From positions 1 through 44,624 of the forward strand of contig CALMVZ010000001.1 of the NCBI GenBank assembly GCA_937873155.1: a DNA stretch of 44,624 nt, in the 5' to 3' direction. The position numbers were made by a program, and so were the translations under genes. Shown here one piece after another: positions 31,424 to 33,934 of the stretch (position 1 is the stretch's first letter; every line of letters starts with the position of its first letter). Under the pieces are notes generated by a model that saw nothing but the letters and a program-made list of their open reading frames with translations, made no database searches and was not told the origin of the DNA. The stretch is from an uncultured Bacteroidota bacterium (lineage in GTDB: Bacteria; Bacteroidota; Bacteroidia; B-17B0; Aurantibacillaceae).

Positions 31424-32050
31424 CTAGCCTTTTTTTGCTTTCACGTATTTCCAATGGCGGATCTTTCCTTCCGACATCCACTGAATAGCTGTTTTGAGGC
31501 GCTTAACTTTGGTCGCTTCGGTCTTAGCTTCAGTTACCCAGTTCACATATTCCTTCTTTTGGCTTGGGCTGAAATTCTCAAATGTATCAAGTGCTTTACT
31601 GTTCTTACTTAACGCTTCTTTAAAATAAGCCGGGACTTTTAATGGTGTTTTGGCTGCAGGTTTTGCCTTGCTTATCTTTTCGCCTTTATCGATCAAAGCC
31701 ATCGCTTCTTTTATATAGGAGATCATGATCTTATCGGAAGGAAAATCTTTCACGGAGGTTAATTTTCCTAAATGTCCCATACCTTCCCGTTCTTTACCAC
31801 GACTAAGGATCTTATTCGGGTCTTTCATTTTCGATTCTAACCAAAAACCAAAAGCACAATGATGTTTGAATGCCGCCATGCTGCATAAAATACTTCCTTT
31901 ATACATGAAGCATGGAAAACTCCATTTCATGGCTTCTTCCACATCCGGACAAGCGGTATGAACTAATTCAAGGATATGAGCTAATATAGGTTTCGCGAAA
32001 TCAGCCGATCTGCCAATGTATAATTCAATGCGTTTATCAATTTTAGCCAT
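31424..32050 (-). CDS. YdeI/OmpD-associated family protein (DUF1801 plus YdeI C-terminal domain)
   Basis: About 208 residues from the ATG at 32050 (MAKIDKRIELYIGRSADF). Longer in-frame starts reach into a repeat at 32122 and are not used. N-terminal DUF1801-like domain (PDVEEAMKWSFPCFMYKGSILCSMAAFKHHCAFGF) and C-terminal bacteriocin-protection/YdeI domain (PAYFKEALSKNSKALDTFENFSPSQKKEYVNWVTEAKTEATKVKRLKTAIQWMSEGK). The family is linked to resistance to cationic or antimicrobial stress in some bacteria. Cytosolic. Upstream of, and 13 bases from, the LytS/LytTR pair. Confidence 0.88.
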   Translation of the reverse strand: MAKIDKRIELYIGRSADFAKPILAHILELVHTACPDVEEAMKWSFPCFMYKGSILCSMAAFKHHCAFGFWLESKMKDPNKILSRGKEREGMGHLGKLTSVKDFPSDKIMISYIKEAMALIDKGEKISKAKPAAKTPLKVPAYFKEALSKNSKALDTFENFSPSQKKEYVNWVTEAKTEATKVKRLKTAIQWMSEGKIRHWKYVKAKKG

Positions 32051-32121: not shown

Positions 32122-32160
32122 GACTCACCCCCAACCCTCTCTACAAGCAGAGAGGGGAGT
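32122..32160 (+). repeat. GACTCACCCCC hairpin repeat, copy 1
   Basis: GACTCACCCCCAA followed by the hairpin CCCTCTCT-ACAAGC-AGAGAGGG and GAGT. It lies upstream of the DUF559 gene in the same orientation as copy 2. Confidence 0.8.
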
Positions 32161-32228
32161 ATAGGCAGATTTGAAGAAAGCTACGTTTTATAGCAAGGGA
32201 TTCGTTATTGTGAATGCATTTTTGAGTA

Positions 32229-32576
32229 ATGAATAAGCAATTAATGATAAAAAGGTGCCGGAGATTAAGACGAAATCAAACGGAAACGGAGAAAATATTT
32301 TGGGAGCAGGTTAGAAACCGTAAAATAAATAACCTGAAATTTTTACGCCAACATCCATTCATTTATCAGAAAGACGCGTCTGATCTGTATTATTTCATTG
32401 CCGATTTTTATTGTGCAGAAAAGAAAATAATAATTGAGTTAGATGGAGGGATCCATAATGAACAAAAAGAGTATGATGAGTACAGAGATTCTGTTTTGAA
32501 AAACCTGGAATTGAAAGTGGTTCGGTTCAAGAATCACGAAATTGAAAAGGCGGTTGGGTTTGTCAGGAGTTTATAA
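32229..32576 (+). CDS. DUF559 endonuclease-like protein (Vsr/PD-(D/E)XK-like)
   Basis: A 115-residue protein of the DUF559 family, related to very-short-patch-repair (Vsr-like) nucleases. NQTETEKIFWEQVRNRKINNLKFLRQHPF is the family N-terminus; ADFYCAEKKIIIELDGGIH supplies the Asp and Glu of the nuclease core (D...ELDG), and VVRFKNHEIE is the late conserved segment. All catalytic positions look intact and length is normal. Start at the ATG at 32229; Met at 32244 is an alternative. It stands alone, bracketed by copies of a palindromic repeat (32122 and 32639), with a third, inverted, copy at 32802. Cutting function is inferred from the fold. Confidence 0.88.
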   Translation: MNKQLMIKRCRRLRRNQTETEKIFWEQVRNRKINNLKFLRQHPFIYQKDASDLYYFIADFYCAEKKIIIELDGGIHNEQKEYDEYRDSVLKNLELKVVRFKNHEIEKAVGFVRSL

Positions 32577-32638
32577 GGACTCACTCTGTTGGAAATTGTT
32601 CTATCGAGTGAGGGTTGTGTTTGTTGGGAACTCACGGT

Positions 32639-32678
32639 GACTCACCCCCGACCCCTCTCTACCAGTAGAGAGGGGAGT
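32639..32678 (+). repeat. GACTCACCCCC hairpin repeat, copy 2
   Basis: GACTCACCCCCGA then the hairpin CCCCTCTCTA-CCAG-TAGAGAGGGG (32652-32675) and AGT. It is 63 bases after the DUF559 stop and nearly identical to copy 1. Confidence 0.8.
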
Positions 32679-32801
32679 AGATGACCCGTCCTGAAATTAC
32701 TTTACAGGTTAAAATAAATCCTGATCAAGCTAACAATAGAGGCAAACCCCGGCTAAATGATTAAAAAAAAGGAAGTCTCATCAACGAAACGCGAAGTGTC
32801 G
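32679..32801. other. Intergenic stretch between repeat copies
   Basis: No gene or further structured element was seen between repeat copies 2 and 3. Confidence 0.4.
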
Positions 32802-32837
32802 CCCCTCTCTATTTATAGAGAGGGGCGGGGGTGAGTC
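32802..32837 (-). repeat. GACTCACCCCC hairpin repeat, copy 3 (inverted)
   Basis: The hairpin CCCCTCTCTAT-TT-ATAGAGAGGGG (32802-32825) followed by CGGGGGTGAGTC, the reverse complement of GACTCACCCCCG. The orientation is opposite to copies 1 and 2. It ends about 20 bases from the stop of the beta-lactamase-like gene and may also serve as its terminator. Confidence 0.8.
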
Positions 32838-32857: not shown

Positions 32858-33934
32858 TTACTGCAAAAACTTCAATATCCCGATAGCTATCTGATCAACG
32901 GGGTTTCCTGAATTTGCTAATACAACAACTGCAACATCTTTGCTTGGAATGAATCCACAAAAGCTACCAAACCCACCGGTGCGGCCATTGTGCCAGATCA
33001 ATTCATTTCCCTTTTTGGTTAAGGTTTTATGCCAGGCTAAGGCGACGTGATTCTTGCTGTCGTTGAAAGTGGATTGATGCGATAATTTAAATGCAGGATT
33101 TGTTTCTTCCAGGTTCGCTTTTGTGTACTTCATCATGTCTTCAGCGGTTGAACGTATGCCACCTGCGCCTGCTAAAGCCCCAAGGTCCCAATAAGAAGTA
33201 CGGTTTCCTTCATCATCATAACCTTTCGCAAAATGTGAAGTGTCAGATTTTGTAATAGTGATCTTTGTATCATTCATGCCAAGGGGCTGACAAATGTATT
33301 GCGTAATTAATTCTTCGTAACTCTTATTGTAGGCTTTTTCCTCAATGATACCGAGAAGTCCCATTCCTAAATTCGAGTATTCGTTCTTTGTTCCCGGTAA
33401 GGTATCAGGTTTCATCAGCTTCAGATATTCCATTACCATTTCCTTAGTATAATTTTTATAAGGATTTCCTATCGTAAAACCGGGTTGCGTCATTAAATTG
33501 AATGGTACGCGGTGAATACGACTTGTGTGATTCGCTAAATGCACCAATTCAATATCGGTTCCTTTATACGCTAAATTCGAGTAGGCTTCTCCCAAATGCT
33601 TTTTCACGGGATCATTCAATCCTAATTTCTTATCCAATATAGCTTGCGCGAATAGAATTCCTGTAAAAGTTTTGCTTATAGAACCGATCTCGTAAATGGT
33701 TTTATTAGTTGGTTTTTGATTGGTGCCCCGCGAAATACTTCCATAATGGTAATAGTTTATCTTTTTATCCTGGTAAACAGCGATACTCAACCCGCAATTG
33801 ACCGGGTTCAGCATGAAATTATTGACAATGGAATCAATTTTTGAGTCTATAAGGCTTGGAGTTTGATTTCCCGTTTGGGCCTTTGCCTGAAAAAGCCCTA
33901 AAAACATAATAAAAACCGCGAAAATACGTTGCAT
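32858..33934 (-). CDS. Serine beta-lactamase-like hydrolase
   Basis: A 358-residue exported serine hydrolase of the beta-lactamase/DD-peptidase (class C/AmpC-like) family. Signal peptide at 1-20 (MQRIFAVFIMFLGLFQAKAQ). Catalytic Ser85 and Lys88 (SISK), Tyr186-x-Asn188 (YSN) and His315-x-Gly317 (HNG, replacing the KTG box) are all present. Such proteins include esterases and peptidases, so antibiotic hydrolysis should not be assumed. A degenerate palindrome (32878-32892) is read in frame in its last codons. Divergent from the beta-barrel gene at 34048. Confidence 0.92.
   Translation of the reverse strand: MQRIFAVFIMFLGLFQAKAQTGNQTPSLIDSKIDSIVNNFMLNPVNCGLSIAVYQDKKINYYHYGSISRGTNQKPTNKTIYEIGSISKTFTGILFAQAILDKKLGLNDPVKKHLGEAYSNLAYKGTDIELVHLANHTSRIHRVPFNLMTQPGFTIGNPYKNYTKEMVMEYLKLMKPDTLPGTKNEYSNLGMGLLGIIEEKAYNKSYEELITQYICQPLGMNDTKITITKSDTSHFAKGYDDEGNRTSYWDLGALAGAGGIRSTAEDMMKYTKANLEETNPAFKLSHQSTFNDSKNHVALAWHKTLTKKGNELIWHNGRTGGFGSFCGFIPSKDVAVVVLANSGNPVDQIAIGILKFLQ
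32878..32892. repeat. Partial copy of the GATAGCTATC palindrome
   Basis: TCCCGATAGCTATCT matches the first 14 bases of the perfect palindrome; it encodes part of VDQIAIGIL in the hydrolase. Confidence 0.5.

Follow-up and report, generated by a model that had tools for sequence, protein, structure and literature searches.

The question raised by this locus is what a single gene of DUF559, a large family of nucleases whose role is not settled, is doing between copies of a palindromic repeat. In the window (the whole stretch of DNA analysed, 44,624 nt), the first-pass annotation had placed three such copies around the gene, and we found them at 32122 (+), 32639 (+) and 32837 (-), at spacings that agree with its description: 69-71 nt from the end of the left repeat to the gene, depending on the cut-off point of the repeat, 62 nt from the gene to the second repeat and 126 nt between the second and third hairpins. 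All three share one design, a CTCACCCC-type tail adjoining a GC-rich hairpin. The left end (32122..32159, +) consists of the GACTCACCCCC tail and a CCCTCTCT..AGAGAGGGG hairpin, the right end (32802..32837, -) of the inverted hairpin and a GGGGGTGAGTC tail, and an additional internal copy (32639..32675, +) is oriented like the left end. With up to one mismatch, GACTCACCCCC has three matches in the window, all of them at this locus (0.15 expected; three reached in none of 100 shuffles), and as single-stranded DNA the three repeats are predicted to fold into hairpins of -7.4, -10.1 and -14.3 kcal/mol (z -2.2, -2.9 and -6.8). The idea that all reading frames through the window repeats are open to an unusual degree was rejected, as they have 4, 3 and 2 open frames of six and shuffles equal this. 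The outer two repeats face outwards and bound an element of 716 nt (32122..32837, unstranded) that is intergenic, lying between a DUF1801/OmdA gene (31424-32050, -) and a serine beta-lactamase-like gene (32858-33934, -). A congener (L043, a Sphingobacteriaceae MAG) carries a related element with the identical outward-facing end layout but no middle copy; the homology of this element to that of the window starts exactly at the left end, and the right end is shared. Since about 190 nt around the middle copy are missing from that element, the middle copy is probably a nested insertion.

The gene itself (32229..32576, +) had been called DUF559 at first pass, and the profile search agrees (PF04480, E 1.8e-27), with a product of 115 aa that amounts to a bare catalytic domain in which residues D59, E70, D72, H76 and D83 are conserved. 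The fold of the predicted model (pLDDT 92.4) is best matched by 3hrl (NGO0050; Z 11.7), with I-Bth0305I next at Z 8.5, level with three mitoribosomal chains (8.0-8.3), and then Vsr (7.3) and TnsA (6.9), and Foldseek compared the model with I-Bth0305I at E 0.017. A sequence-profile search, which is independent of structure, retrieved I-Bth0305I at E 2.9e-5 and 3hrl at 2.5e-29. By profile, modelled fold and conserved columns, the window enzyme is therefore predicted to be a Vsr/EDxHD-like PD-(D/E)XK nuclease. A 2007 account notes, in the part available, that Alphaproteobacteria have DUF559 joined to a SPOUT methyltransferase and that elsewhere it stands alone (PMC1829167).

Comparison with close relatives bears on whether the repeats and the gene form one unit. 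In two congeners (G052, G053) the genes that flank the window element lie only 2 nt apart and the element is absent; read against these genomes, the window unit is an insertion, bounded by repeats, that is missing from the same intergenic site. Six congener loci carry the serine hydrolase gene, of which two are empty, one holds another insert and three have other neighbours. That other insert, of about 650 nt, lies between the serine hydrolase and DUF1801/OmdA genes of the sister genome G054 (L167). Within single genomes, ten chosen comparisons of DUF559 loci yielded two clean blocks with unrelated flanks: Sunxiuqinia dokdonensis has two DUF559 loci with a common 561-nt block at 90% identity and hairpins at both block ends (one contig, L050, ends 16 nt past the block), and a Clostridia MAG (L089) has two copies with a common, hairpin-bounded 557-nt block at 95%; since 1.8 kb of one contig separates these two, a local duplication is possible. 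In the other eight comparisons the flanks were themselves homologous, the copies stood in tandem, the shared block was longer or nothing matched. On plasmids, DUF559 genes were found between paaD and paaZ and between sufB and sufC.

The source genome has three DUF559 genes. The second, on contig C11, lies in frame within leucyl-tRNA synthetase (leuS_bact, 732 bits against a cut-off of 548), with repeats of the window design at either end, and the third, on contig C24, is flanked by another palindrome family. The pattern CACCCCCNNCCCCTCTC with up to two mismatches matches at least nine times in this genome, five of them with no more than one mismatch, and two of the nine flank the C11 gene; nine is a lower bound because a one-base difference in spacing hides two of the three window copies from the pattern. 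One nuclease-free repeat is read in frame in uvrA (TIGR00630, 987 bits against a cut-off of 730).

The first-pass annotation had proposed testing whether solo DUF559 genes are flanked by repeats more often than other places, and this was clearly borne out, outside Bacteroidota as well. Our survey of the window's own family gave 102 DUF559 hits in 87 genomes, 29 of them in long frames; from the other 73, 45 solo rows (44 genes) were tested for repeats in their flanks. L039 and one L100 row are the same gene and both were counted, and the broken frames L049, L075 and L076 contribute two to three rows each. The 350 nt to the left of each DUF559 domain were compared with the 350 nt to the right at a local score of at least 20, leaving out the duplicates L001, L008, L009, L019 and L126. 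A repeat pair was found in 25/45 solo rows of the family and in 34/53 broad solo rows, while the 2415 windows slid along the same loci gave 18 inverted and 28 direct matches (about 2% at most), and thresholds of 16-24 gave the same picture. A further sample of 49 rows, reduced to 37 (L357-L394) by removing 12 from genomes of loci already used (L342-L351, L354, L356), comes mostly from Alphaproteobacteria and plasmids and includes Deinococcus, Azospirillum, cyanobacteria, Sphingomonas and Sinorhizobium. Here 22 of the 37 had a pair, compared with 0/98 slid windows of the whole run; five of the 37 lie in frames of 359-614 aa, the L379 and L385 regions are near-identical and the L394 match is not hairpin-like. 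No left-right pair was found for 20/45 and 19/54 solo rows and 15/37 newly fetched loci, around 40% of solo genes, nor at the locus of the E. coli copy; such genes may be old, domesticated or accompanied by repeats too diverged for the test.

The pair test itself is not specific to DUF559: among controls from the same genomes (30 hits each out of longer lists), GxxExxY genes pass it in 13/30 and TIGR02436 four-helix-bundle genes in 4/30 cases, with other repeats. A GC hairpin lies within 350 nt of DUF559 in 39/45 family solo rows and 52/54 broad rows, against 1/30 GxxExxY genes, 0/30 four-helix-bundle genes and 54/401 slid windows. The GxxExxY loci (L213-L242) have their own, non-hairpin repeats (ACCRCAAAG, CACGAATT and CGCAGAT), at a motif density of 6.46 per kb within 300 nt of the gene versus 0.42 farther away. 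A few of the four-helix-bundle loci (L243-L272) lie in AGTTTGAAAG/GAGATTTGAGA-type repeats, a weak signal, and CGTC-type motifs were found within 350 nt of 0/30 genes of either family. Around DUF559, two or more CTC-type motifs occur within 300 nt at 17/45 loci versus 14/45 in farther windows of double length, a density of 3.95 versus 1.01 per kb, with motifs derived partly from the same loci. Units with palindromes were seen in Bacteroidota, Balneolota, Kryptoniota, Clostridia, Alphaproteobacteria, Deinococcus and candidate phyla, and the same design is written in other letters in Kryptoniota (ACTCACCCCC..CCCCTCTCTA..TAGAGAGGGG..GGGGGTGAGT) and Clostridia (ACCTCATCCACC..CCTTCCCCT..AGGGGAAGG..GGTGGATGAGGT). 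In one alphaproteobacterial genome all six matches of one repeat pattern lie no more than 360 nt from one or other of its two DUF559 genes, and the pattern had no matches in two of the six DUF559-carrying genomes tried. One form of the repeat is commoner in genomes with DUF559 (19/58) than in those without (2/29; p 0.008, kinship and completeness ignored), which fits the reading of the unit as an element.

The first-pass annotation contained nothing on in-frame insertion into conserved genes. Of the 102 family hits, 29 lie within frames of at least 800 aa. Hosts in the family are LeuRS (two sites), MetH (two sites) and urocanate hydratase (HutU); in the wider phylum they also include RecG, HsdR, HsdM, type ISP and Eco57I-like enzymes, UvrD-like helicases and a methylmalonyl-CoA mutase fusion, and in Alphaproteobacteria IleRS and DNA polymerase III alpha (DnaE). 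LeuRS, MetH, HutU, RecG and IleRS score above NCBIfam equivalog cut-offs and the remaining hosts are named by Pfam. The frequency of in-frame copies cannot be derived from the wider-phylum set because many of its 69 domains were fetched for their long frames. Some hosts lie in one-contig genomes (G189 has both LeuRS and RecG copies), so misassembly is no explanation. The junctions (compared without L001, L008, L009 and L019) read as palindrome-encoded peptides on both sides of DUF559, and the insert ends are proline/glycine-rich repeat peptides. Fusions of DUF559 to the ends of HisF, HemF, RNase HI, FGase, GATase_5 and DHquinase may instead be read-through between adjacent genes and not insertions. 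As a side observation, a motif W-x-T-A-D stands just before the domain in 40/72 in-frame and 0/120 solo copies, a lead only, as the pattern was defined post hoc.

The nuclease in these proteins has been kept. The five residues named above (window numbering) are retained in 72/72 in-frame copies with a near-full domain, a figure from which broken copies are missing since domains shorter than 285 nt were left out (L012 was also left out as a duplicate, here and in the clade tree). In-frame DUF559 copies are under purifying selection where this can be measured, with dN/dS of 0.024-0.156 in the seven of 15 pairs for which it was computable (dS was saturated in seven, and one had no amino-acid change). 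That in-frame nucleases are generally younger than their hosts is unsupported as a rule, the nuclease being less diverged than the host at silent positions in only 95 of 185 same-site pairs. In five pairs (HutU, RecG, MetH) the insert was less diverged at p<0.01, of which two survive correction for 185 tests (3.2e-6 and 3.5e-6) and the other three do not, and in none was it more diverged at p<0.01. As the insert is usually as diverged as the host, recent transfer looks rare and much of the inheritance vertical. The family's in-frame nucleases form one clade (29 rows, 98/90; few columns, with the bootstrap not settled) containing site-specific subclades.

LeuRS, for which 70 of the listed loci were compared, allows occupied and empty sites to be set side by side. 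Site A was readable in 68, of which 14 hold DUF559, 33 a loop of 14-15 aa and 21 a loop of 16-34 aa (some with other repeats), and site B in 65, of which five hold DUF559, 49 have 15-16 aa and 11 are longer. The site-A inserts add approximately 141-166 aa, about 105 of them DUF559. Site A is occupied in G000 and empty in its sister genomes G054 and G055; fitting the 14 occupied rows to the LeuRS tree takes 12 changes, compared with 13.0 when labels are shuffled (a quick tree, whose well-supported branches force only three changes), and the site-A nucleases fall into three separate groups of the nuclease tree (again with few columns and the bootstrap not settled). As judged from these comparisons, site-A occupancy is scattered and does not follow the host tree. 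Repeats are also found at these sites with the gene absent: site A of G020 (L205) holds 102 nt of repeat-only insert, which over its first 30 nt is identical to the left end of the site-B nuclease element of the same gene, and at site B of G070 the left end is fused to the right end. Empty, repeat-only and nuclease-bearing states coexist at the LeuRS sites. In-frame repeat-only palindromes were also read in UvrA, HemF, HsdS, ValRS and RmlB (dTDP-glucose 4,6-dehydratase) (L002, L395, L399, L413, L423). The site-A loop is a hot spot for unrelated repeats; L182, L190 and L195 carry there a palindrome containing CGTCACCCTGA (peptide RHPELVSGSQEMLKQVQHD), unlike the window-type ends, and L178 and L193 another repeat (FDSAQGDK). 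In G058, LeuRS is split over contigs C287 and C92 (L032, L408) with a repeat near the break on both pieces, which suggests that an in-frame repeat broke the assembly.

From these data we consider it likely that the window holds one homing-endonuclease-like mobile palindromic element, with outward-facing palindromic ends around a single DUF559 gene. The first-pass annotation had suggested that the nuclease may move or maintain the repeats, in the manner of REP-associated tyrosine transposases (RAYT). The part of this that found support is movement of the repeat-gene-repeat unit, to which the empty sites, the two blocks and the scattered occupancy point. The comparison with REP-RAYT (REPtron) elements holds for architecture, namely a single nuclease-type gene between short hairpin repeats with repeat-only copies elsewhere, but fails for enzyme class, repeat tag and copy number: DUF559 has a PD-(D/E)XK-like, restriction-nuclease-like fold whereas RAYT is an HUH tyrosine transposase (in the window gene none was found, and DUF559 alone passes the Pfam cut-off), the tag here is CTCA(C/T)CC (ends GACTCACCCCC) instead of GTAG, and the DUF559 repeats have few copies per genome where counted. 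Since profile and fold point to I-Bth0305I, an EDxHD/Vsr-type homing endonuclease, among characterised enzymes, homing is the better model. Homing predicts subclades that are specific to a site, an occupancy that is scattered and sister genomes with the empty allele, and so fits. The units share with EDxHD homing endonucleases a conserved insertion site, empty alleles in relatives and conserved essential hosts, but differ in that no intron or intein was found, in their palindromic ends and in occurring in both stand-alone and in-frame forms; EDxHD enzymes are also described, in the available part of one account, with extra DNA-binding regions for a long target (PMC3943268), which the 115-aa window protein lacks. 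Rickettsia palindromic elements (RPE) and CGTC REPs resemble relatives of the window element, not the window copy, in placing in-frame palindromes in conserved genes, but their sequences differ from the DUF559-associated repeats, which lack the CGTC tag and end in CTCACCCC; the excerpts available report CGTC REPs without a dedicated transposase (PMC3733652) and leave the mobility enzyme of RPE unnamed (PMC10969869). On the best reading, the DUF559 unit resembles REP-RAYT elements and RPEs in its working and belongs to neither.

In the mechanism that we envisage, the nuclease would cut the allele that has no insert, or some DNA structure that forms at that place, and break repair templated by the occupied copy would spread the unit, i.e., homing. 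The hairpin ends would be recognition or processing sites; since hairpins mark the ends of the shared blocks, they probably take part in processing. In coding genes the same ends would serve as readable linkers, the inserts not being spliced out, and copies that have lost the gene would remain as repeat-only palindromes, comparable to MITEs or REPINs, and are best regarded as deletion derivatives. The first colonisation of new sites is the least supported step.

The unit could instead owe its mobility to a different enzyme, either a transposase of the tyrosine or DDE type or recombination functions supplied in trans, with DUF559 as passenger cargo. Repeat copies without the gene exist, the repeat occurs in two of the 29 genomes in which DUF559 was not detected, the movement of REPs is ascribed to RAYT (in the section available of PMC3733652), and in Legionella DUF559 is described, in the part available, in a repeated segment alongside a transposase (PMC12308824). 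Nevertheless, the nuclease is the sole gene between the repeats in the units read, its active site is kept in every near-full in-frame copy and under purifying selection where measurable, and two other small-protein families of the same genomes lack such hairpins, and we therefore regard a passenger role as unlikely. A further step down in probability is that DUF559 is a Vsr-like repair or defence nuclease near which ordinary terminators or REPs accumulate. The window protein shares its fold with Vsr and its domain with Caulobacter VsrA, on which, according to the portion available, a methyltransferase mutant depends for its SOS response (PMC12907096), and PADLOC returned weak matches only. 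The context here differs from that of Vsr and VsrA in its repeats and in-frame insertion: the repeats stand on both sides and within coding genes, where terminators make no sense, slid windows and other genes are without them, and occupancy is scattered.

The in-frame copies admit two explanations of their own. They might be domesticated functional extensions of the host enzymes with the repeats as relics, in keeping with their mostly host-like divergence and with purifying selection, but the same loop is empty in sisters of an occupied genome, the hosts are unrelated and what is kept is a nuclease active site, which makes this quite improbable, slightly more so than a repair or defence role. 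They might also be inteins, or homing endonucleases encoded in introns, that are spliced out; a 2022 Thermosynechococcus paper, in its intein section as available, assigns a DUF559 gene to the EDxHD homing family (PMC9403480). The size of the LeuRS site-A inserts, most of which is DUF559 itself, and the proline/glycine-rich repeat peptides at the insert ends speak against splicing, and the intein identity was rejected as no Hint/intein domain was found in 28 scanned DUF559 frames (E up to 1e-3 or 1e-5), leaving this the most improbable explanation by far.

The mobile palindromic element that we favour for the window may belong to something larger. More tentatively, at a little short of an even chance, DUF559 is the enzyme of a widespread, CTCAYCC-tagged, self-mobile palindromic superfamily, one lineage of which sits unspliced and in frame in essential proteins (LeuRS, RecG, MetH and others) with the nuclease kept as a domain, enzyme-less coding palindromes being its deletion derivatives and DUF559, GxxExxY and perhaps the four-helix-bundle family each having a private repeat family. 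The link between this nuclease and homing is not new, because the 2022 paper already makes it; for palindrome ends, free-standing units and in-frame copies of DUF559, no earlier report was found in the open-licence papers searched. The element reading supplies a testable role for the family, and offers in DUF559 a possible enzyme for palindromes that insert into coding genes; the CGTC REPs, as noted, are reported without a dedicated transposase. If true, it would add a third residence for a homing-type nuclease in an essential gene, beside introns and inteins, namely tolerated insertion with palindrome-encoded linkers, and would explain the oversized LeuRS, MetH and RecG proteins of Bacteroidota. 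Taken together, our analysis suggests that DUF559 units represent a class of selfish element, akin to homing endonucleases, that has so far gone unrecognised.
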